DNA of 64,000 bases, taken from NCBI GenBank assembly GCA_007859745.1, contig SMLU01000001.1:2790001-2854000 (forward strand), read 5' to 3'. A program made the translations under genes and the position numbers. The first letter of the stretch is position 1. Each line of letters opens with the position of its first letter. Shown one piece after another: positions 28,096 to 49,731 of this stretch. The stretch is from Phycisphaerae bacterium RAS1. Lineage in GTDB: Bacteria > Planctomycetota > Phycisphaerae > UBA1845 > Fen-1342. The notes beneath the pieces are model-generated. The model saw nothing but the letters and a program-made list of their open reading frames with translations, ran no database searches and was not told the origin of the DNA.

Positions 28096-28531
28096 TTAAG
28101 TCCTTATCGCCACTGGCTTTACGGAAACGCGGATTTTTCGAATAATTCTCCGCCGCAAACCGCAGGAGACCGCACGAAACCGCACTTCCGGTTGTCGCGA
28201 CAACCGCAACGACGCAGCAACATAGAGAGTGCGAAGTCCGCTGTCTTGGTGCGGCCTGATTCCGCTGCGCGATCGGAGGGCGAGCGCAGGCGCTCGGCAT
28301 TCGCCACTCGTCCGCCGAGCCCAAGGCGATTGCATCGAACATCTGAATCACCCTGCTTTGCAAGCCAAAGCCGTTTTGCCATTGACGCGCCGCACTATGC
28401 CAGACGACATACCCTGCGTTTTTTCGCGACCGGAGCCGAATCTCGATTTCGATGCGATGGCCCTGCCGCCGAGCCCGCGGCAAGCCCGGCAGTGTTGCCC
28501 CTACGCGACCGGTTGATATACTACGCGATTG
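28096..28531. other. Left end of the element, non-coding
   Basis: About 430 bp without a credible gene. It holds three spaced ACCGCA units (28157, 28169 and 28179 regions) and a perfect 18-bp palindrome CGGTTGTCGCGACAACCG at 28189-28206. Its half, GGTTGTCG, is the core of the GGTTGTCGTCA sites around the integrase start at the other end. These could be integrase arm-binding sites. Confidence 0.5.
28495..28522 (+). promoter_or_regulatory. Predicted promoter of efflux operon 1
   Basis: TTGCCC at 28495-28500 and TATACT at 28517-28522 are separated by 16 bp. The predicted transcript would start at about the TTG/ATG start codons (28529/28532), implying a leaderless or nearly leaderless message. 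Confidence 0.4.
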
Positions 28532-28933
28532 ATGCGGAAGAAGGCAGCACCGTATTTGATGCTTTTTCTGACGGTCGCATGTCCGACGCTGTGTCGGGCA
28601 TCGATGGTCGCCCGCGTACACTGCGCGGACGAAGCAGCATGGTGCTGCGATCCAGCCGCGAGCCAGCCCGATCCTTGCCCGGAAGACCAGCCTCCCCCCT
28701 CGACCCCGGCCGACCCGTGCGAAGAGCTTTCCTGCTTTTGCTCGCCTTACGTCATGATCGAACGGGACTCCGGCGCGGACACGGTGCTCACGATCAGCGA
28801 GCTCTCGATGAATGCTTGCCCGTCGATCATCATCTTGGTGCCCTGCGCTGGGATCGATATCGGGCTGATGGGTCGACACGCCTTACCTGCGATCACCGCT
28901 GAGAATTCGGCCGCTCTTCCTCTCCTGATCTAA
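28532..28933 (+). CDS. Small secreted Cys-rich protein, efflux operon head (A)
   Basis: The 133-residue product has a signal peptide (MRKKAAPYLMLFLTVACPTLCRA). The next 50 residues are rich in Cys, Pro and acidic residues (CADEAAWCCDPAASQPDPCPE, PCEELSCFCSP). It ends LPLLI. A second small secreted protein at 34437 shares the leader-PxLCxA feature, the acidic Cys cluster and the same five-residue end, so the two are probably paralogs. The periplasmic location next to RND pump genes suggests metal binding or sensing; this is inference. A TTG three bases upstream is an alternative start. Confidence 0.65.
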   Translation: MRKKAAPYLMLFLTVACPTLCRASMVARVHCADEAAWCCDPAASQPDPCPEDQPPPSTPADPCEELSCFCSPYVMIERDSGADTVLTISELSMNACPSIIILVPCAGIDIGLMGRHALPAITAENSAALPLLI

Positions 28934-29063: not shown

Positions 29064-30773
29064 ATGTCAACCAATCGAAATGAACGCGCCGATCAGAGCA
29101 GCGAGCTGCAAACTGGTCGCGCTGCTGCGACAAAAACGAGCCGCCCGTCGGGGCTAGTCGGTTTCGCCAGGACCGCCCTCCGGTCTGTGCCCACGTTGCT
29201 CGTGCTGCTCGCGCTAGGCGGCGCGGGCTACTGGGGCCACAAGAACGATTGGCGCGCGCCGAAATTCGCGTCGCTGTTTGGGTCGCCGCCCGCCGCTGAA
29301 CCGGAGGACTGGTGCGCCGAGCACAATGTGCCGGAGTCGCGCTGCATCAAGTGTCATCCGGAGCTCGCGGGCGAGGCCCCGAAGGACTGGTGCAAAGAGC
29401 ACGGCGTGCCCGAATCACGCTGCACGATCTGTCACCCTGAAATCCTGACCAAGGGCGTGGCCGGCGACTGGTGCAAAGAGCACGGAGTGCCGGAGTCAAA
29501 CTGCACGCTCTGTCATCCCGAGATCGCCGTGAAGGGCGACCTTGCGAAGCCAGCGGACGCACCGAAGGTTCTCGCGACGGATGGCGCCGCGGCGATCGCC
29601 GCGAGCAAGCCGGCGAAAGACCCGGCGACCTGTCAGACACATGCGCTGCGGGTGCAGTTCGCCTCGGCCGAATCGGTCAGAAAGGCCGGCGTGAAGCTCG
29701 ACACCGTGATCGAGCGGCCGATGGAACAGGTCATCACCGGCAACGCCGAAACGCAATACGACCGAACGCGCTACGCCCAAGTCGCATCGCGGCTCACGGG
29801 CGTCGTTTGGCGCGTGGAGAAGGAACTCGGGCAGGCCGTACAGAAAGGCGAGGTGCTGGCGCTAGTGGATGCAGCCGCGGTTGGCCGCACGAAGGCCGAG
29901 TTGCTGACGGCCGCAGCGCAGCGCGAGCTGCGGAGGCAGACACTCCGGCGCGTCGAGAAACTGCTGCCACAGAAGATCAGCAGCGAAGCCGACCTTCAGG
30001 AAGCGCAAGCCGCCCTGCGAGAGGCGGAGATTGGCGTGTTCAACGCGCGTCAAGCGCTCATTAATGTGGGGCTCATGGTTCCTGCCGATACAGAAGCGGT
30101 CCCGGACGAACGGGAGCTCCAGCTCCTGGGCCTGCCGGATCACATTCGGGCGTCACTTGAACCGGGAGCAACGTCTGCGAACCTCGTGCCGCTGTTTGCT
30201 CCGCTGGATGGGATTGTCGTGCAGCGCGAAATTGTGGCGGGCGAGGTCGTTGAAGCATCCAAGCCGCTGTTTGCCGTTGCCGACACGCGCCGGATGTGGC
30301 TGACGATCGACCTGCCGCAGGCACAGGTCGGACGAGTCGCGCTGGGGCAACCCGTGCGTTTCCGGCCGGAGCGCGGGGACGGAGCGATCAGCGGAACGAT
30401 CGCCTGGGTCAGTACCGCCGTCGACGACCAGACGCGAACCGTCAAAGCGCGGGCAGAGCTGGACAACGCGGACGGGCGCTTGCTGGCGAATTCATTCGGC
30501 CGGGCGCAGCTCACCATCCGCGAGTCTCCCAAGGCCATCGCGGTGCCCAGCGAAGCGATCCAGTGGGAGGGCTGTTGCCACATCGTTTTCGTTCGGCTGA
30601 CGGACGACATCTTCCAAACGCGCAAGGTCCGGCTCGGGGCGCGAGGCGCGCAATACACCGAAGTTCTCGTCGGCCTGTTGCCGGGTGAGGTCGTCGCCGC
30701 GGCTGGGAGCCACGTGTTGAAGTCCGAGATCTTGAAGGGCAACCTCGGCGCCGGCTGCTGCGCCGACGAATAG
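29064..30773 (+). CDS. HME-RND periplasmic adaptor with three CxxCH-type repeats
   Basis: This CzcB/CusB-type membrane-fusion protein of 569 residues couples an RND pump to an outer-membrane factor. After a membrane anchor (about residues 43-57) it has three copies of DWCxEHxVPESxCxxCHPE at residues 82-100, 108-126 and 135-153. Then comes the adaptor body: barrel start near 205 (VKLDTVIERPMEQVITGNAE), lipoyl/hairpin region 240-350, beta-barrel region (RRMWLTIDLPQAQVGRVALGQPVRFRP) near 410-440 and a membrane-proximal end. The repeats are not part of the standard adaptor and are also found in the lipoprotein at 33972. The ATG follows a GGAG site. The next gene, the pump, starts 22 bp downstream. 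Confidence 0.88.
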   Translation: MSTNRNERADQSSELQTGRAAATKTSRPSGLVGFARTALRSVPTLLVLLALGGAGYWGHKNDWRAPKFASLFGSPPAAEPEDWCAEHNVPESRCIKCHPELAGEAPKDWCKEHGVPESRCTICHPEILTKGVAGDWCKEHGVPESNCTLCHPEIAVKGDLAKPADAPKVLATDGAAAIAASKPAKDPATCQTHALRVQFASAESVRKAGVKLDTVIERPMEQVITGNAETQYDRTRYAQVASRLTGVVWRVEKELGQAVQKGEVLALVDAAAVGRTKAELLTAAAQRELRRQTLRRVEKLLPQKISSEADLQEAQAALREAEIGVFNARQALINVGLMVPADTEAVPDERELQLLGLPDHIRASLEPGATSANLVPLFAPLDGIVVQREIVAGEVVEASKPLFAVADTRRMWLTIDLPQAQVGRVALGQPVRFRPERGDGAISGTIAWVSTAVDDQTRTVKARAELDNADGRLLANSFGRAQLTIRESPKAIAVPSEAIQWEGCCHIVFVRLTDDIFQTRKVRLGARGAQYTEVLVGLLPGEVVAAAGSHVLKSEILKGNLGAGCCADE

Positions 30774-30794: not shown

Positions 30795-33700
30795 ATGTTG
30801 AACTGGATTATTAACTGGTCGCTGCACCACCGGCTGCTCGTGCTTGGCGTGACGCTCGGCTTCTTCGTCGGGGGACTGATTGCGGTCAGTCACCTGAACA
30901 TCGACGCCTTCCCCGATACGACGCCCGTGCAGGTCCAGATCAACACGGTCGCCCCATCATTGGGACCGGAAGAAGTCGAGCGACAGATCACGATTCCTGT
31001 CGAACAGTCCATCAGCGGATTGCCCAGCCTCACGAACGTGCGCTCCATCTCGAAATTCGGTTTGTCGCAGGTCGTCGTGACGTTCAGCGATGACATCGAC
31101 ATCTACTTTGCGCGGCGGCTGATTGGCGAACGGCTATCGACGGTCGAACTGCCGACGGGCATAGCCGCGCCGGAAATGGGCCCGGTCGCAACCGGCTTGG
31201 GCGAGATCTTCCACTACGTCGTCCGTTCCGACTCACGCAGTCTTACCGAGCTACGAACGATTCAGGACTGGACGATCAAGCCCGTCTTACGCGCCGTCTC
31301 CGGCGTAGCCGAGATCAACAGTTGGGGCGGCTATGAAAAGCAATATCAGGTGCGGATCGACCCGAACCGCTTGATTAAGTACGGGCTGTCGTACGACGAA
31401 GTCGTCGAGGCGTTGGAGCGGAACAATCTCAACGCGGGTGGCGGGAGTATCGCCTCCGGCGGCGCGATGCAGCTCGTCCAGGGACTTGGGCGCGTGGCTA
31501 CGCTCGACCAGATCGGCGACGTCGTCATCAAAGCCAAGGACGGCGTCCCGATCCATGTTGACGACGTGGCCAGCGTTGAAATCGGGGCGGAGATCCGACG
31601 GGGTGCTGTCACGTTCGGCGGGAGAGGAGAGGCGGTGCTCGGCCTGGGCTTCATGCTGATGGGCCAGAATCCGCACGACGTGACGACACGGTTGAAGGCG
31701 AAGCTCGAGACGGTCAAGGCGACGCTACCTACGGGCGTGCATATCGAGACGGTCTACGACCGCACCGAGTTGGTCGAACACGTCATCGACACCGTCCGCA
31801 AGAACCTGTTTGAGGGCGGACTGCTCGTCATCGCCGTGCTGTTCATGTTTCTGGGGAACCTCCGCGCCGGGCTCATCGTCATGCTGGCGATCCCGCTCTC
31901 GATGCTGTTTGCATTCTCGGGCATGGTCCAGTTTGCCATCGCCGGCAGCCTCATGAGCCTGGGGGCGCTCGACTTTGGCTTGGTGGTGGATAGCGCAGTC
32001 ATTCAGATCGAGAACGTCGCGCGACATGTCGCCCACGATCGAACCAGGCGCCGTTTCATCGACATCGTGCGCGACGCGGTATTGGAGGTTCGGAAGCCGA
32101 CGATGTTCGGCGAGTTGATCATCGTCCTGGTATACGTGCCCATCCTGGCGCTCGAAGGCATCGAGGGCAAGCTGTTCCGGCCGATGGCGCTGACGGTCAT
32201 TTTCGCGCTGGCGGGATCCCTGATCCTCTCGCTCACGTTGATGCCGGTGCTCGCGAGCCTGTTCCTGCCCCGCCGCATGGAGGAGCGCGACCCGTTCCTG
32301 GTCCGGCTATGCCGCGGGCTCTATTCACCCGTGCTTCGCTTCGTGATGCGGCACAACGCCGTCGTACTGGGAATGGCGCTGTGCGTGCTCGTGGTCGCAG
32401 TAATCGTCGCTCGCGGACTCGGAGCGGAGTTCATCCCCAAGCTCTCTGAAGGCGCCATCGTCGCCAACGTGATTCGGCTAGCGGGGACCGATCTGGACGA
32501 GTCGATACGCTACAACACACAGATGGAGATGGCCTTGCTCGCGGCTTTCCCAGACGAAATCCGCTACGTGTGGAGTCGGACGGGCACGGCCGAGGTTGCG
32601 ACGGACCCGATGGGTGTCGAGCTGACCGACATCTTTCTGTCGTTTACGCCGCGACAGCAGTGGAAGCGGGCGCGCTCGCAGGCCGAACTGGTCGAGTTGA
32701 TTCAGCGCGAGCTGCGCGACATGCCCGGCCAGCGCGTCGCCATGACGCAACCCATCGAGATGCGCATGAACGAGATGATCGCCGGTGTGCGCGGCGATAT
32801 CGCCATGAAGCTCTATGGTGATGACCTGGACGTTCTCAAGGCCACCGGCGACCGAATCGGCGCGATTCTGGGCTCGATCCAGGGTGCGGCCGACATGTCC
32901 ACGGAGCAGCTCACCGGGCAGCCCGTGCTTCAGATCAAGGTCGATCAGGAGGCCCTGGCTCGTCACGGCGTTCCCGCCAAGGCAGTCATGGATATTGTCG
33001 AATCCCTTGGCAGCAAGCCGTTGGGCGAAGTGATCGAGGGCCAGCTCCGTTTTCCGCTTGTCGCGCGGCTGCCTGACTCCTATCGACGGGATTCGGAGGC
33101 GATCCGCGCCATCGTTCTGCCCACCGCGTCAGGACAGAGGGTGCCGCTCGCGAATCTGGCAATGGTCGAGGAAGTCGAAGGACCATCCACGATCATGCGC
33201 GAATGGGGTCAGCGCCGCACGACCGTTCAGGTAAACGTCCGTGGGCGCGACGTGGTCAGCTACATCGCCGAGGCGCAGCGCCGCATCGCGGCAGAGGTGC
33301 CGCTTCCGCCCGGGCGCTATCATATCGAGTGGGGTGGCCAGTTCGAGCAATTCGAGCGCGCCCGCAATCGACTGTTGATCGTCGTCCCGGTCGTGCTCGT
33401 AATGGTCTTCGTCCTGCTCTACATCACCTACAACCGGGTTTTGGACGCAGTGCGCGTTTTCACGGGCGTTCCTTTCGCCGTGGTCGGAGGCGTGATGGCG
33501 CTATGGGTGCGAGACATGCCCTTTTCGATTTCCGCCGGCGTCGGCTTCATCGCCCTGTCGGGCGTGGCTGTGCTGGGTGACATGGTGCTCGTTTCGTACG
33601 TCCGCCAGTTGCTCGCGCGCGACTTTCCGCTGCGCGAAGCCGTCGCGGAAGCAGCAATGACGCGATTGCGCCCGGTTCTGATGACCGCGCTCGTAGCAGC

Positions 33701-33959
33701 GCTCGGCTTCGTGCCGATGGCCCTGAGCACGGGCGTCGGGGCCGAAGTTCAGCGTCCCTTGGCGACCGTCGTGATCGGCGGCGTGATCAGCAGCACGCTT
33801 CTGACGCTGCTTGTGTTGCCCGCCATCTATCTCGTTTTCGGCGCCTCAGCCGCTGTAGCGCGGCAGGAGGAGCAGGTTGAAGTCGCTGAGTCAACCATCC
33901 CGGCTCGCAGTACCGTCGGCGAACCGACGACAGCCGAAGCCGGACCTGTTCATGCGTAA
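30795..33959 (+). CDS. HME-RND heavy-metal efflux pump 1 (CzcA/CusA family)
   Basis: This 1054-residue inner-membrane proton/metal antiporter has twelve predicted helices and two large periplasmic loops. Family landmarks: N-terminal helix then NIDAFPDTTPVQVQINT (residues 35-51), the ATGLGEIFHYVV segment near 132, the proton-relay helix GALDFGLVVDSAVIQIEN near 392-409, and the C-terminal SGVAVLGDMVLVSYV and RPVLMTALVAALGFVPMAL repeats. The relay motif has Ser where CzcA-type Zn/Co/Cd pumps usually have Gly (DFGxxxDGA), so the metal specificity is left open. It lies in an operon with its adaptor upstream and a Cys-repeat lipoprotein 12 bp downstream. Confidence 0.92.
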   Translation: MLNWIINWSLHHRLLVLGVTLGFFVGGLIAVSHLNIDAFPDTTPVQVQINTVAPSLGPEEVERQITIPVEQSISGLPSLTNVRSISKFGLSQVVVTFSDDIDIYFARRLIGERLSTVELPTGIAAPEMGPVATGLGEIFHYVVRSDSRSLTELRTIQDWTIKPVLRAVSGVAEINSWGGYEKQYQVRIDPNRLIKYGLSYDEVVEALERNNLNAGGGSIASGGAMQLVQGLGRVATLDQIGDVVIKAKDGVPIHVDDVASVEIGAEIRRGAVTFGGRGEAVLGLGFMLMGQNPHDVTTRLKAKLETVKATLPTGVHIETVYDRTELVEHVIDTVRKNLFEGGLLVIAVLFMFLGNLRAGLIVMLAIPLSMLFAFSGMVQFAIAGSLMSLGALDFGLVVDSAVIQIENVARHVAHDRTRRRFIDIVRDAVLEVRKPTMFGELIIVLVYVPILALEGIEGKLFRPMALTVIFALAGSLILSLTLMPVLASLFLPRRMEERDPFLVRLCRGLYSPVLRFVMRHNAVVLGMALCVLVVAVIVARGLGAEFIPKLSEGAIVANVIRLAGTDLDESIRYNTQMEMALLAAFPDEIRYVWSRTGTAEVATDPMGVELTDIFLSFTPRQQWKRARSQAELVELIQRELRDMPGQRVAMTQPIEMRMNEMIAGVRGDIAMKLYGDDLDVLKATGDRIGAILGSIQGAADMSTEQLTGQPVLQIKVDQEALARHGVPAKAVMDIVESLGSKPLGEVIEGQLRFPLVARLPDSYRRDSEAIRAIVLPTASGQRVPLANLAMVEEVEGPSTIMREWGQRRTTVQVNVRGRDVVSYIAEAQRRIAAEVPLPPGRYHIEWGGQFEQFERARNRLLIVVPVVLVMVFVLLYITYNRVLDAVRVFTGVPFAVVGGVMALWVRDMPFSISAGVGFIALSGVAVLGDMVLVSYVRQLLARDFPLREAVAEAAMTRLRPVLMTALVAALGFVPMALSTGVGAEVQRPLATVVIGGVISSTLLTLLVLPAIYLVFGASAAVARQEEQVEVAESTIPARSTVGEPTTAEAGPVHA

Positions 33960-33971
33960 AGGAGATGCGTC

Positions 33972-34331
33972 ATGAGTATTGCGAGAACGTGTCGGATGTT
34001 CGGGCTGGCGCTCTTTGCCGCGCCCCTCCTGATGGGCGGATGCGAGTGCAACAGCAAAGCGCCACACACGGAAACGGAGGCGGCCAAGAAGCAGCCGGCT
34101 GCCGCCGAGAAGCCCAAGGAGCCGCTGGTCAAGAAGGCCGAGCTGGTGGACTGGTGCAAGGAGCACGGCGTGCCCGAGTCGGTCTGCACGCGCTGCAATT
34201 CGGAGTTGATCGATGGGTTCAAGAAAAAGGGCGATTGGTGCGCCAAGCACGACCTGCCGGATTCGCAGTGCCTTGTTTGCCACCCGGAGCTGAAGGCCAA
34301 ATTCGAGGCGATGAAGCCGAAGGGCGGGTGA
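33972..34331 (+). CDS. Lipoprotein with two CxxC(H)-type repeats
   Basis: The 119-residue product has a lipoprotein leader (LLMGGC, Cys at 24) and a Lys/Glu/Ala-rich linker. Two units like those in the adaptor at 29064 follow: DWCKEHGVPESVCTRCNSE at 60-78 and DWCAKHDLPDSQCLVCHPE at 88-106. The first has Asn in place of the last His. A small periplasmic metal-binding or metal-passing role beside the pump is likely but unproven; c-type heme attachment to the CxxCH is an alternative. The ATG follows AAAGGAGATGCGTC. Confidence 0.8.
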   Translation: MSIARTCRMFGLALFAAPLLMGGCECNSKAPHTETEAAKKQPAAAEKPKEPLVKKAELVDWCKEHGVPESVCTRCNSELIDGFKKKGDWCAKHDLPDSQCLVCHPELKAKFEAMKPKGG

Positions 34332-34436: not shown

Positions 34437-34781
34437 ATGTTGAATCGGGCCGTTATCAGCTTTGCCGTCCTTTGGGCGTTTCTTGCCGTGCCGAGCCTCT
34501 GCGGCGCCGGCCTGCTCGCGCACGCCTGCCAGCAGCACGCTGCCAACGACTGCGGTCACGAGAGCGATTGCAGCGACGATCCCTGTGCGAAATTCGTTTC
34601 AGCCGCCACGCTGTCGCTTCGCATCACCGGGCTCGATGTTGCGCATCCGCCGGCTGCCGTGATTCTGCCCGACATTCTCTCCGGCGGATGTCTTCCGTCG
34701 GCTCATCTTGTACCCGCCTCACATCCGCCGCGTGGCGCTCCACCTGCCGTCGTCGCGGACCGACTGCCCCTCTTGATCTGA
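34437..34781 (+). CDS. Small secreted Cys-rich protein, efflux operon head (B)
   Basis: The 114-residue product has a signal peptide (ISFAVLWAFLAVPSLCGAG), a Cys/His/Asp cluster (HACQQHAANDCGHESDCSDDPC near residues 29-50) and the end LPLLI. It resembles the protein at 28532 in leader, Cys cluster, position at the head of an efflux operon and end. The cluster could bind several metal ions. There is no clear Shine-Dalgarno site before the ATG, consistent with the near-leaderless promoter. Confidence 0.65.
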   Translation: MLNRAVISFAVLWAFLAVPSLCGAGLLAHACQQHAANDCGHESDCSDDPCAKFVSAATLSLRITGLDVAHPPAAVILPDILSGGCLPSAHLVPASHPPRGAPPAVVADRLPLLI

Positions 34782-34879
34782 GCTTTCATTCCGTCCGCGC
34801 TGCTCATCAGCGACGTCGGCATCGCGCGCTGTAGGTGTGCTGTTCCGCGCCTTGCAGACCAAAACCCAGGAGACTTCCT

Positions 34880-36448
34880 ATGCCCTCCATCGCACGATGG
34901 AGCATTTTTGGCTGTCTGATTTCCGGCGCGCTGCTGATAGTCGGCTGTGCGTCCGTCAACGCGCGGCCCGACTATGACCGCGTCGATCGGCAAGTCGCGT
35001 CGGTCGTCGGCCAGCCACTTTCGTATCGCCCGGGCGACGAACCGGCTGTGCGATCAATGACGACGGGGTTGCTGGAAGACGGCCTGACGGCGCAGGAAGC
35101 CGTGCAAATTGCGCTGCTGAACAACCCGAAAGTATGGGCCGGACTGCTCCGGACCGGGATGGCTAGCGCTGACGTCGTCCAGGCCGGGCTGTTCACGAAC
35201 CCGACGGTCGGAGTTCGCCTCCGTTTCCCGGAAGCCGGCGGCTTGGCCGACTTTGAAACCGGATTGTCCCAGAACATTGCGGACCTGTGGATGATCCCGG
35301 CGCGAACGCGGGCGGCCGAGCGCGACCTCGATCGCTCCATCCTGGAGACGGCCCGAGAGACCGCGGCGATCGCGTATGACACGAAGGTCGCGTACTACAA
35401 CGCCGTCGCAGCGCACCGCTCGCTGGAAATCTCACGTGAGAATCTCGGGCTCGTTGAACAACTCCTGAGAATCACCGAAGCGCGCCTCGAAGCGGGCGCC
35501 GTGGGTTCGCTCGACGTGAATCTCGTGCGCGGCCTCGTGCTTCGCGCCGGCGTCGACCAGCGCAACGCCCGCCTGGTGGCTGCGACGGCCAAGCGCACGC
35601 TCGCCACGCTGCTGGGCCTGGACGCTCCGGCCGAGGATATCCGCCTCGTGGATCCGCTGCCCGCGCCGATTGCAACGACGCTTGAAGCCGAACGGCTGGT
35701 TGAGGTCGCCCGCGACGCCCGGCTTGACCTCCGAGCCGCTCGTGACGCTGTGTCCGCGGCCGAAGCGCGCGTCGAACTCGAATATGTGAAGGTCTTTCAG
35801 AACGTCCAACTCAGCTTCGACCTGGAACGCAACGCACGCCGCGCATTGCCCGGCCGGGATATCGCGGCGGATACGGCGCGGGCTTCGATTGCGAACGGCG
35901 CGCTGACTGCGCCGGGCATCGAGTCGCGCGGACAGCGCCGGCTGGCGCGCAGTCAGGAAATCGAAGCCATTCTGGGACCGGGGCTCAGTGTCACCCTTCC
36001 GATTTTCGATCAGAACCAGGCCCAGATCGCCAAGGCCAAGCTGGCGATGCAGGAAGCCGACGCACTACTGGAATCGCTCCTGCGGACCGTTTCCCAGGAA
36101 ACCCGTGAAGCCGCCGACCGCGCCACGACCGCTTGGGGAGTCGCACGCCTCTATGAGCAGGAAGTGCTGCCACAGGCGCAAACGACACTTGAACTGTCGC
36201 AGTCTGCCTATCAGGCGGGTCAGACAGCCATCTTGAACGTGATTGATGCGCAGCGGTCGTTGCTCGAGACGAGGCAGGCGTACGTGGCGGCACTCCAGAG
36301 CGCCGCCAGCGCGCTGGTGGATCTGGAACGCGCGACTGCTCGACCGGCGACGTTTCTGCTCCAGTCGGCCGGAACACAACCGGCATCAACGCAACCCGCA
36401 CCAAATCCGGGGGCTGACGCTGTACATCCACAGGAGACGAATCGATGA
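34880..36448 (+). CDS. Outer-membrane efflux factor (TolC/CzcC family)
   Basis: The 522-residue lipoprotein (leader with IVGC, Cys at 21) is an outer-membrane channel of the TolC fold. The two OEP repeats are visible: AVQIALLNNPKVWAGLLRTGMASADVVQAGLF near 75-106 and the second with LSVTLPIFDQNQAQIAKAKLAMQEADALL near 370-398, each followed by long coiled-coil helices. It is the only outer-membrane factor gene recognised in the element, so it may serve all three RND systems. The ATG at 34880 follows AGGAGACTTCCT. It overlaps the next small gene by four bases. Confidence 0.88.
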   Translation: MPSIARWSIFGCLISGALLIVGCASVNARPDYDRVDRQVASVVGQPLSYRPGDEPAVRSMTTGLLEDGLTAQEAVQIALLNNPKVWAGLLRTGMASADVVQAGLFTNPTVGVRLRFPEAGGLADFETGLSQNIADLWMIPARTRAAERDLDRSILETARETAAIAYDTKVAYYNAVAAHRSLEISRENLGLVEQLLRITEARLEAGAVGSLDVNLVRGLVLRAGVDQRNARLVAATAKRTLATLLGLDAPAEDIRLVDPLPAPIATTLEAERLVEVARDARLDLRAARDAVSAAEARVELEYVKVFQNVQLSFDLERNARRALPGRDIAADTARASIANGALTAPGIESRGQRRLARSQEIEAILGPGLSVTLPIFDQNQAQIAKAKLAMQEADALLESLLRTVSQETREAADRATTAWGVARLYEQEVLPQAQTTLELSQSAYQAGQTAILNVIDAQRSLLETRQAYVAALQSAASALVDLERATARPATFLLQSAGTQPASTQPAPNPGADAVHPQETNR

Positions 36449-37978: not shown

Positions 37979-40177
37979 GTGAGGCAGTTGGACTTGAAAA
38001 TCGACGGCATGGACTGCGCGGAGGAGATCGCGGCGCTGCGCGCGGCGCTCGGTCCCCTCTCCGGCATTCAGAAAATCGACTTCAATCTGCTCGAACGCCG
38101 CATGACCGTCCAATTCACGCCCGAGCAGGTGGGTGATGAAGCGATCATTCGAGCCGTGCAGCGGACGGGGCTGCGGGCGACCCCATTCCGCGAAGCGGCG
38201 GAGTACGCGGACGATCGCTCGCTGTGGCGACGCCGGGGCCGCACGCTCATGACGGCGGTCTCGGGTGTGCTGCTCGTCGCCGGGTTCGTTGCGCACGTCG
38301 GCGCCGCTGGTTGGAGAACCGCAATCGGCGAGCATGCCCTGTCTGCGATCCCCTTGGTGGTGCGTTGCGTGTATGTGCTGGCGGCAGTGGCAGGCGCGTG
38401 GTTCGTGCTTCCCAAAGCATGGTTTTCGCTGCGTCGGCTGCGGCCGGACATGAATCTACTGATGACGATCGCCGTCACGGGTGCGCTGGCGATCGGAGAA
38501 TACTTCGAGGCGGCCGCCGTCGCGTTCCTGTTCGCGCTTTCGCTGGCACTGGAAGCGTGGAGCGTCGGCCGCGCGCGGCGCGCGATTGCCGCTTTGATGT
38601 CGTTGACGCCGCCGCAGGCCAGGGTTGTGCAGGCGGACGGCAACGAAACACTGGTCGACGTCGCGGACGTGCCCGTGGGCGGGCGCTTCGTCCTCAAGCC
38701 CGGCGAAAAGGTCCCGCTCGACGGCCGGATCGTTACTGGACAGACAACGGTCGACCAGTCACCAATCACGGGCGAATCATTGCCCGTCTCCAAGCAGGTA
38801 GGTGACTTGGTCTTCGCGGGCTCGTTGAATCACGACGGCGCCATTGAGGTCGAGTCGGTCAAGCCCGCTTCTGAAAGCACCGTCTCCCAGATCATCAAGC
38901 TGGTGCGCGAGGCGCAAAGCCGTCGCTCGCCCGCGGAGCGCTGGGTCGAGACTTTCGCGCGCTACTACACGCCCGCGGTGCTGGCTCTGGCCGTCATTGT
39001 CGGCGCCGTCGTTCCGCTCATGGTCGGCAACTGGAGCGCCTGGTTCTACCAAGCACTGGTACTGCTCGTCATCGCCTGCCCGTGCGCGCTGGTTATTTCG
39101 ACGCCCGTCAGCATCGTCGCCGCCTTGGCCAGCGCTGCGCGCCACGGCGTGCTGATCAAGGGCGGCGAGTTCGTCGAACTGCCCGCCCGGCTCAAGGCCA
39201 TCGCGCTCGACAAGACCGGCACGCTCACCCAGGGGCGCCCCGCCGTGCGGGACGCCGTGCCGTTGTCTGGGCATACTGAAGCCGAATTGCTCGAAATCGC
39301 GGCGGCGATCGAGTTGCGATCGGAACACCCGCTTGCCCAGGCCATCGTCAGCCATGCCAAGGCACGCGGGATTCGTCCGCTGCCGGTGCAGGACTATCAA
39401 GCACTCAAGGGTAAGGGCGCAACGGCGCTCTTGAACGGGCGCTCCGTCTGGATCGGTTCCCACCGCTACCTCGAAGAGCGCGGCGAGGAGACGCCCGAGC
39501 TACACGACCAGCTTGAGGCGATGTCCGGCGCCGGAAGCAGCGTGGTGGTCGTGGGTGAGGACGGCCACGTGTGCGGTTTGATCGCGCTGGCAGACCAGCT
39601 CCGCCCCGACGCCTCCGCGGTAGTCCAGGATCTCCGCGCTGCGGGAATCGAGCACGTCATCATGCTGACCGGAGACAATACGCCGACCGCCAAGGCAATC
39701 GCACAAGCGAGCGGCATCGACGAGTTCCGAGCCGAGCTGCGGCCGGAAGACAAGGTCACAGCCATTGAGGAACTCGTACAGCGCTACGGCACCGTCGGGA
39801 TGATCGGGGACGGGGTAAACGACGCACCTGCCCTGGCCCGCGCCAGCGTCGGCTTCGCGATGGGCGCCATCGGGACGGACGCCGCGATTGAGACCGCGGA
39901 TATCGCCCTGATGAGCGATGACCTTTCTCGCGTACCCTGGCTGATCCGGCATTCGCGGCGTGCGCTTCGCATCGTGCGTCAGAACATCGTCGCGTCGCTG
40001 GCCATCAAGGCCGCTTTCATCGGGCTCACGCTACTCGGACACGCCTCGCTCTGGGCCGCCATCGCCGCGGACATGGGTGTGTCGCTGCTCGTGGTCGGCA
40101 ACGCGCTGCGGTTGCTCAGCGACGTCGCTCAATCCGATTCAGCAGTGGGAATCTCTATTGAACGGAGATCGCAATGA
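37979..40177 (+). CDS. P1B-type ATPase, Zn/Cd/Pb/Co type
   Basis: This ATP-driven exporter of soft divalent cations resembles CadA/ZntA. The 732-residue product has an N-terminal HMA-like domain (GMDCAEE at residues 10-16, one Cys plus acids instead of CxxC), TGES at 264-267, the transport motif CPC at 367-369, the phosphorylated Asp in DKTGT at 411 and GDGVNDAPAL near 606. The CPC motif with a DCAEE-type N-domain favours Zn/Cd over Cu. It starts at GTG 37979, 27 bp after the adaptor. The stop overlaps the next start (ATGA). Confidence 0.9.
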   Translation: MRQLDLKIDGMDCAEEIAALRAALGPLSGIQKIDFNLLERRMTVQFTPEQVGDEAIIRAVQRTGLRATPFREAAEYADDRSLWRRRGRTLMTAVSGVLLVAGFVAHVGAAGWRTAIGEHALSAIPLVVRCVYVLAAVAGAWFVLPKAWFSLRRLRPDMNLLMTIAVTGALAIGEYFEAAAVAFLFALSLALEAWSVGRARRAIAALMSLTPPQARVVQADGNETLVDVADVPVGGRFVLKPGEKVPLDGRIVTGQTTVDQSPITGESLPVSKQVGDLVFAGSLNHDGAIEVESVKPASESTVSQIIKLVREAQSRRSPAERWVETFARYYTPAVLALAVIVGAVVPLMVGNWSAWFYQALVLLVIACPCALVISTPVSIVAALASAARHGVLIKGGEFVELPARLKAIALDKTGTLTQGRPAVRDAVPLSGHTEAELLEIAAAIELRSEHPLAQAIVSHAKARGIRPLPVQDYQALKGKGATALLNGRSVWIGSHRYLEERGEETPELHDQLEAMSGAGSSVVVVGEDGHVCGLIALADQLRPDASAVVQDLRAAGIEHVIMLTGDNTPTAKAIAQASGIDEFRAELRPEDKVTAIEELVQRYGTVGMIGDGVNDAPALARASVGFAMGAIGTDAAIETADIALMSDDLSRVPWLIRHSRRALRIVRQNIVASLAIKAAFIGLTLLGHASLWAAIAADMGVSLLVVGNALRLLSDVAQSDSAVGISIERRSQ

Positions 40178-41460: not shown

Positions 41461-41742
41461 ATGAGAGCAATCGTTAGGTATTCCGTGGAAGGCGAGCAGG
41501 ATGAACAGCTGAACAACCGCTTGCGGGAGACACCTCAAGCCGGTTTCGTGCCCAACCTACACGTCACGGCGACGTATGAGCACAACGTGATGAGCGGTCC
41601 GCAGCTCGCTCTGGCGATGTTGGACTTCTGGCATCAGGCGAGCAACCCGCCCGGGCAGGCGAGGGTTCCGTACGATCGCAAGCTCCGCGTGCGGCTGGCG
41701 CCCCAGCCGTGTTCGAGATTTGGAGGGTTCTCTCATGCTTGA
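41461..41742 (+). CDS. Small protein of unknown function before CzcA-like pump
   Basis: The 93-residue product begins MRAIVRYSVEGEQDEQLNNR and has a predicted small alpha/beta start (GFVPNLHVTATYEH near 31-44), then LALAMLDFWHQASN. The last 25 residues are basic and may be frameshifted or unconstrained. A clear AAGGAG site lies eight bases upstream. It overlaps the next gene by eight bases, so translation of the pump could be coupled to it. Confidence 0.55.
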   Translation: MRAIVRYSVEGEQDEQLNNRLRETPQAGFVPNLHVTATYEHNVMSGPQLALAMLDFWHQASNPPGQARVPYDRKLRVRLAPQPCSRFGGFSHA

Positions 41743-44700
41743 GGCCGTTCTTCACTTTTCGATTCGCAATCGCTGGGTGATCGTACTGTTCACTGCGATC
41801 GTCGCCAGCGTCGGCGTGTACTCACTCCAGCGCCTGCCCATCGACGCCGTTCCCGACATCACCAACAACCAGGTGCAGATCAACGTCCTGTTCCCCTCGC
41901 TATCCCCCATTGAGATCGAGAAGCAGGTCACGTTCCCGATTGAGACGGCGCTGGCGGGCATTCCGGGCCTGCGATCGACGCGCTCGCTTTCGCGCAACGG
42001 GTTCTCGCAGACAACGGCGGTGTTCGAGGACGACGTGAACGTCTATTTCGCGCGGCAGCAGGTCTCCGAGCGCCTCGGCCAAGCCAAGGAGAGTCTGCCG
42101 CCCGGGGCTGAGCCGATCATGGGTCCGATCGCGACCGGTCTGGGCGAAATCTACATGTACACCGTCGAATACGAGCACCCACACGGCAAGGCCGCGCCGA
42201 TCGCCGACGGCGAGCCAGGTTGGCAGAGCGACGGGGCCTATTTGACGCCAGAGGGACAGCGGCTCGCGTCTGATCTGGAGCAAGCAGCCTACCTGCGGGA
42301 GGTGCAGGACTGGATCGTTCGCCCGCAACTCAAGGGCGTGAAGAACGTGGCGGGCGTCGAAGCAATCGGCGGCTACGTGAAACAATATCACGTTCAGCCC
42401 GACCCGATGAAGCTGGTCAGCTTCGGCCTCACGTTTCACGACGTGATTGAGGCGTTGGAGCGCAACAATGTGAGCACCGGGGCGGGTTACATCGAGCACA
42501 AGGGCGAGGCGTATGTTGTGCGCGCGACGGGCCGCATCGAGCGCCAGGAGCAGATCGAGTCGATCGTGGTCGGTACGCGCAATGGCGTGCCGATTTACGT
42601 GAGCGACATCGTCGGGCCGGACGGCGTGGGCGTTGGCCGCGAGATGCGGACGGGTTCCGCGAGCGAGAACGGCGAAGAGGTCGTGGTCGCCACGGCCATC
42701 ATGCTGCTCGGCGCGAACAGCCGCACCGTGGCCGCGGCCGTCGATGACAAGATGCGGGAAATCCAGCGGTCGTTGCCGCCGGGCGTCCACGCCAAAACGG
42801 TGCTGAATCGCACCAAGTTGGTGGACGCCACGATCCAGACGGTGCAGAAGAACCTCCTGGAAGGCGCCATCCTCGTCATCGTCGTTCTGCTGCTCTTGCT
42901 GGGTAATCTCCGCGCAGCGCTGATCTGCGCGTTGGCCATTCCAATTTCCATGCTCATGACCGCCACGGGCATGGTGCAAAGTAAGGTCAGCGGCAACTTG
43001 ATGTCACTCGGCGCGATCGACTTTGGCTTGATCGTCGACGGCGCCGTCATCATCGTCGAGAACTGCCTCCGTCGGCTCGCGCACAAGCAGCACCAGATTG
43101 GTCGTGTTTTGACGCTCCAGGAACGGCTCCACGAGGTCCTCGGCGCAAGCAAAGAGGTACGATCGGCGACGGCCTATGGGGAAGCAATCATCATCACCGT
43201 CTATTTCCCGATCCTGGCGCTGACCGGAGTCGAGGGGAAGATGTTTCACCCCATGGCGCTCACGGTCATTTTTGCCCTTGTAGCAGCCTTCATCCTCTCG
43301 CTGACGTTCGTTCCCGCGATGGTGGCCATACTGGTTCGTGGACGGGTCAAAGAGAAAGAGGTTCTCGTTATTCAGTGGGCAAAGGCACTGTACGAGCCGG
43401 TGGTCAACGGGGCGGTGAGGTGGCGCTTGGTTGTCGCGCCGGCCGCGGTCGTCATGTTCTTCGCATCCTTGCTCCTGTTCACGCGCCTCGGTCAGGAGTT
43501 TGTACCGACGCTGGACGAGAAGGACATCGCGATGCATGCGATGCGAATCCCGAGTACGGCCCTCACCCAATCCGGCTTGATGCAGGTTGACGTCGAGCGC
43601 ACGGTCGCTTCGCTGCCGGAAGTCGCGTTCGCCTACTCCAAGACCGGCACGGCCGAGATGGCGACCGACCCCATGCCGGTGAACGTCTCAGACACGTTCA
43701 TCATCTTCAAGCCGCGCGCGGAGTGGCGCAGCGAGGCCGAACTGGACCGACTGATCGCCGCGAAGACCGAGGAGATGGAGAAGCTCGGCGGCGGGCATGC
43801 AGAGGAGGAGCACGGTCACGGCGGCCACGAGGAGGGTGAGGTGAAGCTCGTCGGTCACAAGGGCAAGCTCCAGAAGTTGATCGAGTTGACGGTCAAGACG
43901 CTGCCCGGCAACAACTATGAGTTCACGCAGCCGATCCAGATGCGTTTCAACGAGCTGATCTCAGGCGTGCGCGGAGATGTGGCGGTAAAGGTCTATGGCG
44001 ATGATTTTGCCAAGATGCAGAAAACGGCCCAGCAGGTGCTTTCAGTTCTGCGGAACATCGCCGGCGCGGCCGACGCAAAGCCAGAACAGACGACCGGCTT
44101 GCCCGTCATGACGATCGACATCGACCGTGCTGCCATCGCGCGTTACGGACTGAATATTGCCGACGTGCAGGACGTGATCGCGGCGGCGATGGGCGGTCGC
44201 GAAGCCGGACTGGTGTTCGAGGGCGACCGTCGCTTCGATCTGGTCGTGCGACTTCCGGACGCGCTGCGCGGCCAACCGGAAACTTTGGAGACGCTCCCGA
44301 TCCCATTGCCGCAGGTTGAGGAAAAGCAACCGAGCAACGTGCGGCTGGCCACGCTCGACGGATCGATCGAAAACCTGATCCCCACCCATGACGTGGGTTT
44401 CGTGCCGCTTGGGCAGATAGCCCGGATCGACGTGGCCGAGGGCGCCAACCAGATCAGCCGCGAGAACGGCAAGCGCCGCATCGTCGTGCAGTGCAACGTG
44501 CGCGGCCGCGATCTCGGTTCGTTTGTCACGGAAGCGCAGGAGAAGATGCAGGCGGTCGCGTTGCCGCCCGGCGGCTGGCTGGTGTGGGGCGGGCAATACG
44601 AGAATCTCGTTGCGGCGAAGAAGCGGCTGACGATCGTCGTGCCGGTTTGCTTCCTGCTGATCTTCATTCTGCTCTTCAGCACGTTCAAGAGCGTGAAGTA

Positions 44701-45247
44701 CTCGTTGCTCGTCTTCAGCGCCGTGCCGCTTGGCCTGACAGGCGGCATCCTCTCGCTGTGGCTGCGCGACATGCCCTTTTCGATCTCCGCGGCTGTAGGC
44801 TTCATCGCGCTGTCGGGCGTGGCGGTGTTGAACGGTCTGGTAATGGTCAGCTTCATCAACCAGCTTCGGCGCGAAGGAATGGCGCGCGACGAAGCGATCC
44901 TGCGGGGCAGCTTGACTCGCTTGCGCCCCGTGCTGATGACGGCCTTGGTCGCGTCGCTTGGCTTTGTTCCGATGGCAATTGCGACGGGAACCGGCTCAGA
45001 GGTGCAGCGCCCGCTCGCCACGGTCGTCATTGGCGGTCTCCTCTCCAGCACGCTGCTGACGCTCGTCGTGCTCCCCGCGCTCTATCGTATTTTCACGGGA
45101 TGGGACAAGGCTGGCCTGCCTCAGCCGGTAACGCAGGAGTGGGAAGCGCCGGAGACTGGCCCGCTCGAAGTGACGGCGCCGTCTGTCAGCGTAGGCATTA
45201 GAGCCGCAAATCGGGACGGTGGCGCGCCGCCGGCTTCGCAACGATGA
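41735..45247 (+). CDS. czcA: HME-RND heavy-metal efflux pump 2 (CzcA type)
   Basis: This 1170-residue proton/metal antiporter belongs to the Zn/Co/Cd class by its relay helix DFGLIVDGAVIIVEN (residues about 427-441). Other landmarks are RLPIDAVPDITNNQVQINV near 34, ATGLGEIYMYTVE near 134 and SGVAVLNGLVMVSFI near 1024. It is longer than usual because of two insertions: a loop after residue 145 (EYEHPHGKAAPIADGEPGW) and a His/Glu-rich loop (HAEEEHGHGGHEEGE near 687-701) in the second periplasmic region, which is plausibly a metal-capture site. The start used is the ATG at 41735, after GGAGGG. Its adaptor follows rather than precedes it. Confidence 0.92.
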   Translation: MLEAVLHFSIRNRWVIVLFTAIVASVGVYSLQRLPIDAVPDITNNQVQINVLFPSLSPIEIEKQVTFPIETALAGIPGLRSTRSLSRNGFSQTTAVFEDDVNVYFARQQVSERLGQAKESLPPGAEPIMGPIATGLGEIYMYTVEYEHPHGKAAPIADGEPGWQSDGAYLTPEGQRLASDLEQAAYLREVQDWIVRPQLKGVKNVAGVEAIGGYVKQYHVQPDPMKLVSFGLTFHDVIEALERNNVSTGAGYIEHKGEAYVVRATGRIERQEQIESIVVGTRNGVPIYVSDIVGPDGVGVGREMRTGSASENGEEVVVATAIMLLGANSRTVAAAVDDKMREIQRSLPPGVHAKTVLNRTKLVDATIQTVQKNLLEGAILVIVVLLLLLGNLRAALICALAIPISMLMTATGMVQSKVSGNLMSLGAIDFGLIVDGAVIIVENCLRRLAHKQHQIGRVLTLQERLHEVLGASKEVRSATAYGEAIIITVYFPILALTGVEGKMFHPMALTVIFALVAAFILSLTFVPAMVAILVRGRVKEKEVLVIQWAKALYEPVVNGAVRWRLVVAPAAVVMFFASLLLFTRLGQEFVPTLDEKDIAMHAMRIPSTALTQSGLMQVDVERTVASLPEVAFAYSKTGTAEMATDPMPVNVSDTFIIFKPRAEWRSEAELDRLIAAKTEEMEKLGGGHAEEEHGHGGHEEGEVKLVGHKGKLQKLIELTVKTLPGNNYEFTQPIQMRFNELISGVRGDVAVKVYGDDFAKMQKTAQQVLSVLRNIAGAADAKPEQTTGLPVMTIDIDRAAIARYGLNIADVQDVIAAAMGGREAGLVFEGDRRFDLVVRLPDALRGQPETLETLPIPLPQVEEKQPSNVRLATLDGSIENLIPTHDVGFVPLGQIARIDVAEGANQISRENGKRRIVVQCNVRGRDLGSFVTEAQEKMQAVALPPGGWLVWGGQYENLVAAKKRLTIVVPVCFLLIFILLFSTFKSVKYSLLVFSAVPLGLTGGILSLWLRDMPFSISAAVGFIALSGVAVLNGLVMVSFINQLRREGMARDEAILRGSLTRLRPVLMTALVASLGFVPMAIATGTGSEVQRPLATVVIGGLLSSTLLTLVVLPALYRIFTGWDKAGLPQPVTQEWEAPETGPLEVTAPSVSVGIRAANRDGGAPPASQR

Positions 45248-46635: not shown

Positions 46636-49600
46636 GTGATCAACGGCATCATTAACGGCGCCTTGAAGCAGCGTTTTCTGATTCTCGTCTGCGGGCTGGG
46701 GATGGTCCTCTTTGGCGTTTACTCCACACTGCGTCTCAACATTGAAGCGTTTCCGGACGTAACGAACATCCAGGTTCAGATCAACACGGCCGTGCCAGGT
46801 CTGGCGGCTGTCGAAGTCGAGAAGCTGATCACTTTCCCGATCGAGTCGGTGATGAACGGGCTGCCCGACGTCACTGAAGTCCGCTCGATTTCGAAGACGG
46901 GGCTCTCGGTTGTCACGGTCGTGTTCAAGGATGGCGTGGACATCTATTTTGCCAGGCAACTCGCGCTTGAACGCTTGCAGATTGCCAAGAGCCGCATTCC
47001 CGAAGGGCTGGGCGAGCCGGAGATCGGACCGATCTCGACCGGGCTCGGCCAAATCTACAAGTACACGCTGATTGGTGAAGAAAAGTCGGCGATGGAATTG
47101 CGGACCATCAACGATTGGTTCGTAAAGTTCCAGCTCAGGACTGTGCCGGGCGTGACCGACGTGCTCAGTTTCGGCGGCGAGGTGCGGCAGTACCAAGTGC
47201 GCGTCAATCCGAACAAGCTGATCGAGTACAAGCTGACTCTGGAGGATCTTGAGGAAGCCATCCGAGCCAATAACCGTAACGCGGGCGGCTGGTACATCGA
47301 AGGCGATCAGGAGCAGCTCGTCGTCCGCGGGGAGGGCCTGATTCGCGGAAGCCGCGACGGGCTGGTCGACATCGAGAATGTCGTACTCAAGGCCGAACAT
47401 GGAACGCCGGTCTACGTTGAAGACGTGGCGGAGGTCGAGTACGGGGCTCAGATTCGTCAGGGCGCGGTCACGATGGACGGCAGGGGCGAAGTCGTCATGG
47501 GCATCGTGCTCCAGCTCAAGGGCGCGAACACGAAACAGGTTATCGAGCGAGTGCGCGACAAGGTGGCAGCGCTCCAGCCCTCTCTGCCGGAAGGGGTCCG
47601 GATCGTTCCGGTGTACGACCAGGCCGATCTTGTCGAGAAGGCGGTCGGCACGGTGCGCCAGGCGTTGACCGAAGCCGCGGTCCTGATCGTAATCGTGCTG
47701 TTTCTCTTCCTGTGGAACGTCCGTTCGGCGCTCGTTGTCGTCTCCTCGATTCCCCTGTCGATGCTGATTGCCTTCGTCATGATGCGGTGGTACGGCCTGT
47801 CGGCAAACTTGCAGTCGCTGGGCGGGCTGGCGATCGGCATCGGCATGATGGTGGATGGTTCGGTCGTCATGATGGAGAACATCATCCGGCACCTGGCCGA
47901 ACCGAATAAGCGTGGTGAATCGCTAGCGCATCGCGTGCGGGAGGCCGCACAAGAGGTCGGGCAGCCCGTGTTCTTCGCGGTGCTCATCATTATCGTCGTG
48001 TTCCTCCCCCTCTTCACGCTCCAAGGCGTCGAGGGCAAGTTGTTCAGCCCGATGGCCTTCACAATCGCTTTTGCGATGCTGGGTTCGCTGATCGTGGCCT
48101 TGACCGTCGTGCCGGTCCTTTCTGCGATCGTTCTGCGCGGTAAGTTCAGTGAGCGAGATAACTTTCTCATGCGCTTTCTGAAGCTGGTCTACCGGCCCTT
48201 GCTGAGCTGGGCGCTGCGCCATCGCTGGGTCGTCACGGGGACCGCCGTGCTGGCGCTTGCTGTCTCGCTGGCCATCGTGCCATTCCTTGGGACGGAATTT
48301 GTACCGGAGCTCGATGAGGGCACGATGAGCATCCGCGTGACGATGAACCCGAGCATTTCGTTGAACGAATCCAAACGCATTGCGAATCACCTGGAAGCCA
48401 AGCTGTTGAAGTATCCCGAAGTCCGGTACGCGTTCAGCCAGATCGGGCGCGCCGAGCTTGGCGGGGACCCGGAGCCCATCGCGAACAATGAGATCAACGT
48501 CGGACTGAAGCCGCAGGCCGAGTGGACGACGGCCCATTCGCGCCAGGAACTGGTTCGCATTCTCGAGGAGGATTTGGGCGAGTACCCCGGTATCCTGCTG
48601 AACTTCTCGCAGCCCATCGCGACGCGGGTGGACGAACTCCTCTCGGGAGTGAAGGCCCAGCTCGCGATCAAGCTCTTCGGCGAGGACCTGGAGGTGCTCG
48701 AAAGGAAGGGTCGCGAGATCGAGGCCGCAATCAAGGCAACCCGCGGCGCTTCCGACGTGCAGATGGAGCAGATCAACGGCGAGGCGCAACTGGTCGTGCG
48801 GGCCGATCGGGATGCTCTCGCGCGCTATGGTCTGAACGCGGCGCAGGTGATGGAGGTCGTCTCCACGGCGGTCGGCGGCAAAGCAGTTACCGAAGTGCTG
48901 GAAGGCCAGAGACGATTCGTCGTCTATCTTCGCATGGCCGAATCGTATCGCAACAATCCCGAATCCATCGGCGACCTCTGGGTTTCGAGTCGCGATGGGG
49001 CTCATGTACCTCTGTCGCAGGTTGCGGATATTCGCCTCGTTCAGGGGCCGCCAACCGTCAGTCGCGAGGATGCGCAGCGCCGAATCGTCATCCAGTGCAA
49101 CGTGCGCGGCCGTGACATGGGCGGGTTCGTTGCGGAAGCACAGAAGGCGGTGCTGGAGCGAGTGCGACTCCCCGCCGGGTACTTCGTCACGTGGGGCGGA
49201 CAATTCGAGAACCAGCAGCGCGCCCAGAAAACGTTGATGGTGGTCGTACCTGTGTCCCTGGGGCTGATCTTTTTCTTGCTGTACATGTCGTTCAACTCCA
49301 TCAAGAACGCCCTGCTCATCATCTTCAACGTGCCTTTCGCTCTGGTGGGCGGCATTTTCGCCCTGGCGCTGTCGGGGCAATACTTGAGCGTGCCCTCGTC
49401 GGTCGGCTTCATCGCGCTCTTCGGGGTGGCCGTGCTCAATGGCGTTGTCATGGTGTCGTACTTCAATCAACTCGTCCGCCAAGGCCTGACGCTCGACGAT
49501 GCCGTTGCGAAGGGGGCAATGCTGCGTCTCCGGCCGGTACTCATGACCGCAACCGTGGCCAGCTTGGGTTTGATCCCGCTGCTACTTTCCTCGGGGATCG

Positions 49601-49731
49601 GGTCGGAAGTTCAACGCCCTCTGGCGACGGTCGTCGTCGGTGGGCTGGCTTCTTCGACGCTGTTGACGTTGCTCGTGCTTCCCGCGCTTTACCCGTGGTT
49701 CGCGCCGGCGCGGGTGCACGTGGAAATCTAG
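46636..49731 (+). CDS. HME-RND heavy-metal efflux pump 3
   Basis: This 1031-residue RND antiporter has landmarks RLNIEAFPDVTNIQVQINT near 34-52, STGLGQIYKYTLIG near 134, and the relay helix SLGGLAIGIGMMVDGSVVMMEN near 394-415. That helix lacks the DFG of CzcA-type members and resembles the mixed or less studied HME classes, so metal specificity is unknown. The C-terminal half ends RPVLMTATVASLGLIPLLLS... LVLPALYPWF. It starts with GTG at 46636. A PII-like protein follows 28 bp later. Confidence 0.9.
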   Translation: MINGIINGALKQRFLILVCGLGMVLFGVYSTLRLNIEAFPDVTNIQVQINTAVPGLAAVEVEKLITFPIESVMNGLPDVTEVRSISKTGLSVVTVVFKDGVDIYFARQLALERLQIAKSRIPEGLGEPEIGPISTGLGQIYKYTLIGEEKSAMELRTINDWFVKFQLRTVPGVTDVLSFGGEVRQYQVRVNPNKLIEYKLTLEDLEEAIRANNRNAGGWYIEGDQEQLVVRGEGLIRGSRDGLVDIENVVLKAEHGTPVYVEDVAEVEYGAQIRQGAVTMDGRGEVVMGIVLQLKGANTKQVIERVRDKVAALQPSLPEGVRIVPVYDQADLVEKAVGTVRQALTEAAVLIVIVLFLFLWNVRSALVVVSSIPLSMLIAFVMMRWYGLSANLQSLGGLAIGIGMMVDGSVVMMENIIRHLAEPNKRGESLAHRVREAAQEVGQPVFFAVLIIIVVFLPLFTLQGVEGKLFSPMAFTIAFAMLGSLIVALTVVPVLSAIVLRGKFSERDNFLMRFLKLVYRPLLSWALRHRWVVTGTAVLALAVSLAIVPFLGTEFVPELDEGTMSIRVTMNPSISLNESKRIANHLEAKLLKYPEVRYAFSQIGRAELGGDPEPIANNEINVGLKPQAEWTTAHSRQELVRILEEDLGEYPGILLNFSQPIATRVDELLSGVKAQLAIKLFGEDLEVLERKGREIEAAIKATRGASDVQMEQINGEAQLVVRADRDALARYGLNAAQVMEVVSTAVGGKAVTEVLEGQRRFVVYLRMAESYRNNPESIGDLWVSSRDGAHVPLSQVADIRLVQGPPTVSREDAQRRIVIQCNVRGRDMGGFVAEAQKAVLERVRLPAGYFVTWGGQFENQQRAQKTLMVVVPVSLGLIFFLLYMSFNSIKNALLIIFNVPFALVGGIFALALSGQYLSVPSSVGFIALFGVAVLNGVVMVSYFNQLVRQGLTLDDAVAKGAMLRLRPVLMTATVASLGLIPLLLSSGIGSEVQRPLATVVVGGLASSTLLTLLVLPALYPWFAPARVHVEI

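Follow-up and report, generated by a model that had tools for sequence, protein, structure and literature searches.

What is a repeated Cys/His element doing on both sides of a heavy-metal efflux pump? The window (the whole 64,000-nucleotide stretch of DNA analyzed here) encodes an adaptor with three copies of the element and a lipoprotein with two, and the pump gene lies between them. The layout given in the preliminary description is confirmed, with the Asp codons of the adaptor units at 29307, 29385, and 29466 and the lipoprotein units at 34149 and 34233. The relevant features are:

29064..30773, + strand: periplasmic adaptor of the CzcB/ZneB type, 569 aa, with an N-terminal unit array
29157..29243, + strand: membrane-anchor helix of the adaptor, residues 32-60 (AlphaFold helix, hydrophobic sequence)
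29307..29363, + strand: adaptor unit 1, DWCAEHNVPESRCIKCHPE
29385..29441, + strand: adaptor unit 2, DWCKEHGVPESRCTICHPE
29466..29522, + strand: adaptor unit 3, DWCKEHGVPESNCTLCHPE
30795..33959, + strand: HME-RND pump of the unit-associated clade, TM4 motif DFGLVVDSAV (TIGR00914, 1181 bits; tree)
33972..34331, + strand: two-unit lipoprotein, 119 aa, lipobox LLMGGC
34149..34205, + strand: lipoprotein unit A, DWCKEHGVPESVCTRCNSE, ending in CN rather than CH
34233..34289, + strand: lipoprotein unit B, DWCAKHDLPDSQCLVCHPE
34835..36448, + strand: outer-membrane factor (OMF) of the CzcC type (Pfam OEP, 1.2e-32)
37979..40177, + strand: P1B-type ATPase with an HMA domain and the TM8 motif DMGVSLLVVGNALR (Pfam, motif)

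The core of the unit is C-x2-H-x6-C-x2-C, with a Trp ahead of it and PES within it, and successive units start 26-28 residues apart. No further WCxxH...CxxC unit was found in the six frames of the window, and searching the complete 5.5 Mb genome at the protein level returned units at the adaptor and the lipoprotein only, the third match (E 0.9) being noise. The three-unit stretch is 94-95% identical among relatives, and the closest of them give a dN/dS of 0.016-0.034; this conservation, together with matches in 74 of 294 planctomycete genomes, indicates that the unit is not a chance pattern. Apart from the array, the adaptor is a conventional one. It matches Pfam HlyD_D23 (2.5e-36), ZneB is its nearest PDB sequence (3lnn, E 1.9e-21) as well as its best Foldseek match, and it combines the barrel-sandwich/alpha-hairpin fold with an adjoining CusA/CzcA pump gene, as expected of an HME-RND periplasmic adaptor.

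Conservation within the unit is concentrated at the putative ligands. A set of 171 distinct units was gathered with a regular expression demanding C, H, C, and C, so the invariance of those residues in this set follows from the way it was gathered; alignment A2, however, which was collected by HMM, is invariant in seven of its eight ligand columns and above 90% in the last, and the majority of sites other than CxxH and CxxC are free to vary. The P(E/D)S motif, initially described as invariant-looking, proved to be frequent rather than invariant (P in 148, E in 151, and S in 133 of 171 units), and the CxxCH ending cannot be kept as a feature of the unit, as the position following CxxC is occupied by H in 67 units, by N in 58, by D in 25, by R in 8, and by others, S included, in the remainder. 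With three Cys per unit, disulfides within a unit cannot pair them all. Three subtypes recur in order: an optional type 0, with CPFC and first ligands that are at times CxH; type A, frequently with CTRC and then an FKAxG linker; and type B, with GDWCxEHxxPESQC. Adaptors carry 1 to 9 units, and degenerate copies exist, as in the second units of loci L015 and L100.

A match at E<=0.01 was obtained in 74 of 294 evenly drawn genomes of Planctomycetota, the weakest of which may be chance, and in 8 of 40 genomes from the phylum of a Wallbacteria MAG (Walliibacteriota by tree labels). In the phylum of a Nevskiales MAG (Pseudomonadota by tree labels), 1 of 349 genomes matched, this being the MAG itself. 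A broad distribution beyond Planctomycetota was rejected, as none of the 348 other sampled Pseudomonadota matched and the convincing matches in PLSDB were two planctomycete plasmids. The units on the Nevskiales contig (L006) are near-identical to those of planctomycete loci and its pump nests beside that of planctomycete locus L007; its presence in a Pseudomonadota MAG reflects either mis-binning or transfer.

The association of the unit with metal pumps, for which the preliminary description called for a survey across genomes, is consistent throughout. All unit loci examined encode a metal-pump adaptor or a small companion, and an HME-RND gene lies directly downstream of every unit adaptor unless the contig ends (wide loci and the window). 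The units are thus restricted to adaptors of HME-RND pumps and the small partner proteins of the same operons, and do not lie mostly in proteins without a link to metals. The gene for the small unit protein is located 3' of the pump or, in L090 and L097, between the OMF and the adaptor, and a lipobox-like motif is found in 31 of 37 such proteins, although the regular expression was loose and a few matches may be chance. In L016-L018, L020, and L021, the two-unit module of the lipoprotein lies inside the adaptor, and a separate lipoprotein was not seen in the stretch examined. On the planctomycete plasmid pK2D_1, the order is czcC, a Cys-rich secreted protein, czcB with units, czcA, and the unit lipoprotein, followed by a small lipoprotein, a secreted HMA protein, cadA, a thioredoxin lipoprotein, and czcD. 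Downstream of the system in the window, the P1B ATPase is ZntA-like, and its TM8 motif is presumably that of Zn/Cd/Pb pumps. The thioredoxin-like protein of pK2D_1 (L167, 12664-13110), which has a lipoprotein-like signal and adjoins the unit lipoprotein, has homologues in L022, L025-L027, and L100-L103, and it may keep the unit thiols reduced.

The pumps themselves form a group. In a tree of 67 pumps built by a quick method (51 unit-associated and 16 others), all 51 unit-associated pumps fall on one side of a single branch (SH-aLRT 100), a grouping that none of 500 shuffles equaled. For the converse test, the window pump was used as the query in 199 planctomycete genomes and the neighborhoods were then read. 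This yielded 46 pumps of at least about 53% identity, three of them at contig ends, and by hand count units were present in the adaptor, or in L184 in a neighboring ORF, for 42 of the 43 visible clade adaptors. The adaptor of L171 has no unit and that of L172 has a weak one (7 bits); since the L171 pump is presumably functional, the unit may serve to enhance function without being essential. Beside related pumps of about 48-51% identity, none of 20 adaptors carried units, and most had His-rich or other N-termini. Pumps of the clade retain the Asp and Glu of the proton relay. By alignment with SilA, they lack the Met triad of Cu/Ag (HME4) pumps (CusA M573/M623/M672) and have N, L, and E at the positions of SilA M573, M623, and M672, which argues against Cu(I)/Ag(I) as cargo.

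A natural variant bears on the fourth ligand. In two species of one genus (L092 in genome G173 and L093 in G199), an apparent small protein and the adaptor constitute one frame, whose sole break is an in-frame TGA exactly at the fourth ligand Cys, in PESQCPL-TGA-G (on the reverse strand of G173:C405, just after 1687, and at 7865 of G199:C441). The open frames spanning the TGA are 683 and 704 residues long, as the search reported. The polypeptide encoded beyond the TGA lacks a membrane anchor, and export would hardly be possible without read-through; in the other adaptors examined, an anchor or signal-like segment precedes the units. Between the two species, synonymous sites are saturated (pS 0.9-1.0), yet conservation holds for the TGA and for the flanks on either side (pN 0.21 upstream and 0.18 downstream). 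A single-site sequencing error is ruled out, as the UGA is common to two species at synonymous saturation. G199 encodes a tRNA-Sec with the anticodon TCA and a full SelB (357 bits); G173, a 77% complete genome, has pieces of SelB on two contigs and no tRNA-Sec over the cut-off. Each TGA has a hairpin of 7 bp on its 3' side, 21-22 nt away, with G then U at loop position 1 or 2, and this hairpin falls within the published bSECIS limits (16-37 nt, loop of 3-9 nt, MFE at most -7.5; PMC13188914), a similar filter being passed by chance by about 4-6% of other codons in these genes. Because an in-frame UGA at a Cys position coincides with a bSECIS-like hairpin, tRNA-Sec and SelB, and downstream conservation despite synonymous saturation, this adaptor is, judging from sequence, very probably a new selenoprotein and probably represents a new selenoprotein family. 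Metal-related bacterial selenoproteins, such as SaoC, MbdU, and a putative mercuric transport protein, are covered in a review of prokaryotic selenoproteins from 2026 (PMC13188914); as in L092 and L093, their Sec is located where a metal ligand may be expected. HlyD, RND, and adaptors go unmentioned in the main text of that review. The probable Sec at the fourth ligand marks this position as a functional thiol(ate), and the exchange of UGA for Cys supports a thiol(ate) there, although a redox role would fit too.

The predicted structures differ in confidence between the two partners. In the AlphaFold2 model of the lipoprotein (61 sequences; mean pLDDT 73, about 86-93 over both units), each unit is modeled as a short hairpin that leads, past CxxC, into a helix, in a treble-clef manner. 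In that of the adaptor (36 sequences), the membrane helix spans residues 32-60, the units have a pLDDT of about 55-75, the linker at 157-183 is disordered, and the canonical fold is confident from about residue 190. The adaptor units are thus predicted to be beads on a tether at the membrane-proximal end.

The module does not correspond to anything already cataloged. The possibility that it is a described Pfam domain did not materialize, as no Pfam-A or NCBIfam model covers the unit; no PDB match was found by sequence or by profile, neither Foldseek nor VIA-align recovered a structural relative using the predicted lipoprotein model, and no earlier description was found in the open-access literature. 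The closest in appearance is HMBD (PF19335; CPMHPEV...CPKCGM, in CusB-type adaptors), which is widespread in this phylum, with matches in 74 of 119 genomes, and is likewise a short, often tandem CxxH...CxxC element. The two differ in spacing (x10 in HMBD and x6 in the unit), HMBD lacks PES, and the only overlap seen is the order of the ligands, CxxH then CxxC. The unit has no Pfam PF19335 match, and comparison with a profile of 40 HMBD sequences from the same phylum gave no significant similarity (hhalign probability 13%, score 12.8), the score falling among shuffled controls, the best of which reached 16 with all columns shuffled and 27 with the Cys/His columns kept; a common origin is therefore not supported. 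The unit is a small, previously undescribed Cys/His repeat on metal-efflux adaptors and a companion lipoprotein, and it constitutes a missing domain family for annotation.

Taken together, these data lead us to favor, at a probability of roughly two in three, a tethered thiolate/imidazole relay for soft divalent metals, built from a module unrelated to CusF/CusB. Each unit would be a small autonomous metal-binding module with the ligand set C-x2-H/C-x2-C, present in tandem both on the flexible adaptor segment, which connects the anchor to the canonical fold, and on the operon-encoded lipoprotein. The lipoprotein units would take up soft divalent ions in the periplasm and, through ligand exchange, hand them on to the matching units of the adaptor tether, which would either deliver them to the RND pump or, once the adaptor is metal-loaded, switch the pump on. 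Support comes from the linkage of unit and pump, the restriction to one clade, the two-unit fusion into the adaptor, the conservation of the ligands, the divalent-type pump, the modeled structure, the UGA at the fourth ligand, and the precedent of CusF/CusB. The preliminary idea of a periplasmic relay of tandem units on two partners is well supported by genomic context and fusion, while metal binding itself, like the identity of the metal, its transfer, and the direction of flow, is what we infer. The replaced Met triad, ZneB as the nearest PDB adaptor, and the units beside cadA and czcD on pK2D_1 point toward divalent cargo, which would most likely be Zn, Cd, or Co, with Hg or Pb possible. 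The fuller account, in which an undescribed metallochaperone module defines a divalent HME-RND branch, works as a ligand-exchange chain, and in one genus has a C,H,C,Sec adaptor site, seems to us an even bet.

The precedent is instructive both in its likeness and in its differences. CusF is a small beta barrel with a Met/His/Trp Cu site; the lipoprotein model has no beta barrel and no Foldseek match, and its ligands are Cys and His. In Escherichia coli CusCFBA, as here, a small periplasmic operon protein accompanies an adaptor with a flexible, metal-binding N-terminus, and L090 and L097 even have the cusCFBA-like gene order of OMF, small protein, adaptor, and pump. The CusF/CusB relay uses Met ligands for Cu(I)/Ag(I), and by itself the N-terminal 1-61 fragment of CusB acquires metal from CusF and can activate CusCBA (PMC6235853). 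In the system described here, by contrast, the ligands are Cys and His and are repeated, the same module is on both partners, the partner is usually a lipoprotein, and the pump has no Met triad. ZneB/CzcB adaptors share the canonical fold of the window adaptor, but have a His/Asp-rich N-terminus instead of Cys/His units. To our knowledge, periplasmic metal collection is much less clear for Zn/Cd/Co HME-RND systems than for CusCFBA. A repeat shared by an adaptor and a small partner, in one pump clade, makes a relay directly testable, and the copy number of 1 to 9, the fusions, and the Cys-to-Sec swap, which could also serve as an X-ray absorption probe, are natural variants for its study.

An alternative in which the metal is structural rather than cargo, each unit being a zinc-stabilized mini-domain through which the lipoprotein docks onto the adaptor, or one adaptor onto another, is unlikely, although it accounts for several features. 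The compact ligand spacing and the hairpin-helix model resemble those of structural zinc fingers, W and PES are conserved in addition to the ligands, and both partners bear conserved units. Variation from 1 to 9 units per adaptor fits a function in capacity better than a fixed interface, however, and a tether predicted to be disordered and a link restricted to one metal-pump clade also weigh against it.

We consider it less likely still that the unit acts as a thiol-based redox or metal-sensing switch, in which oxidation or metallation of CxxC or CxxU gates assembly of the pump. The Cys residues could carry out redox chemistry too, as CxxC and CxxU motifs are present and thioredoxin lipoprotein genes adjoin several loci. 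However, CxxH is as conserved as CxxC and a pure redox pair needs no CxxH, and up to nine copies per adaptor would be unusual for a switch. Attachment of c-type heme at CxxCH, raised in the preliminary description, is very improbable: although CxxCH closes all three adaptor units of the window and one of its two lipoprotein units, the His that heme c needs after CxxC is present in 67 of the 171 units (34149 is CxxCN), so the set lacks the conserved CxxCH of c-type cytochromes, the match to a decaheme HMM is weak (E 0.0011), and heme would leave the conserved CxxH, W, and PES unexplained.

Several minor observations concern the neighborhood and the pump. Two small secreted Cys-rich proteins without a Pfam match flank the system (28529-28933 and 34437-34781), and homologues of these occur at similar places in L004-L007. 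The same island encodes two more RND pumps (41720-45247 and 46636-49731), which lie outside the unit-associated clade in the tree. Finally, in the pump encoded at 30795-33959, His147 (numbered in the 1061-residue stop-to-stop frame) is conserved among pumps of the clade, and other pumps have a different residue there, making it a candidate cargo ligand or interface residue.
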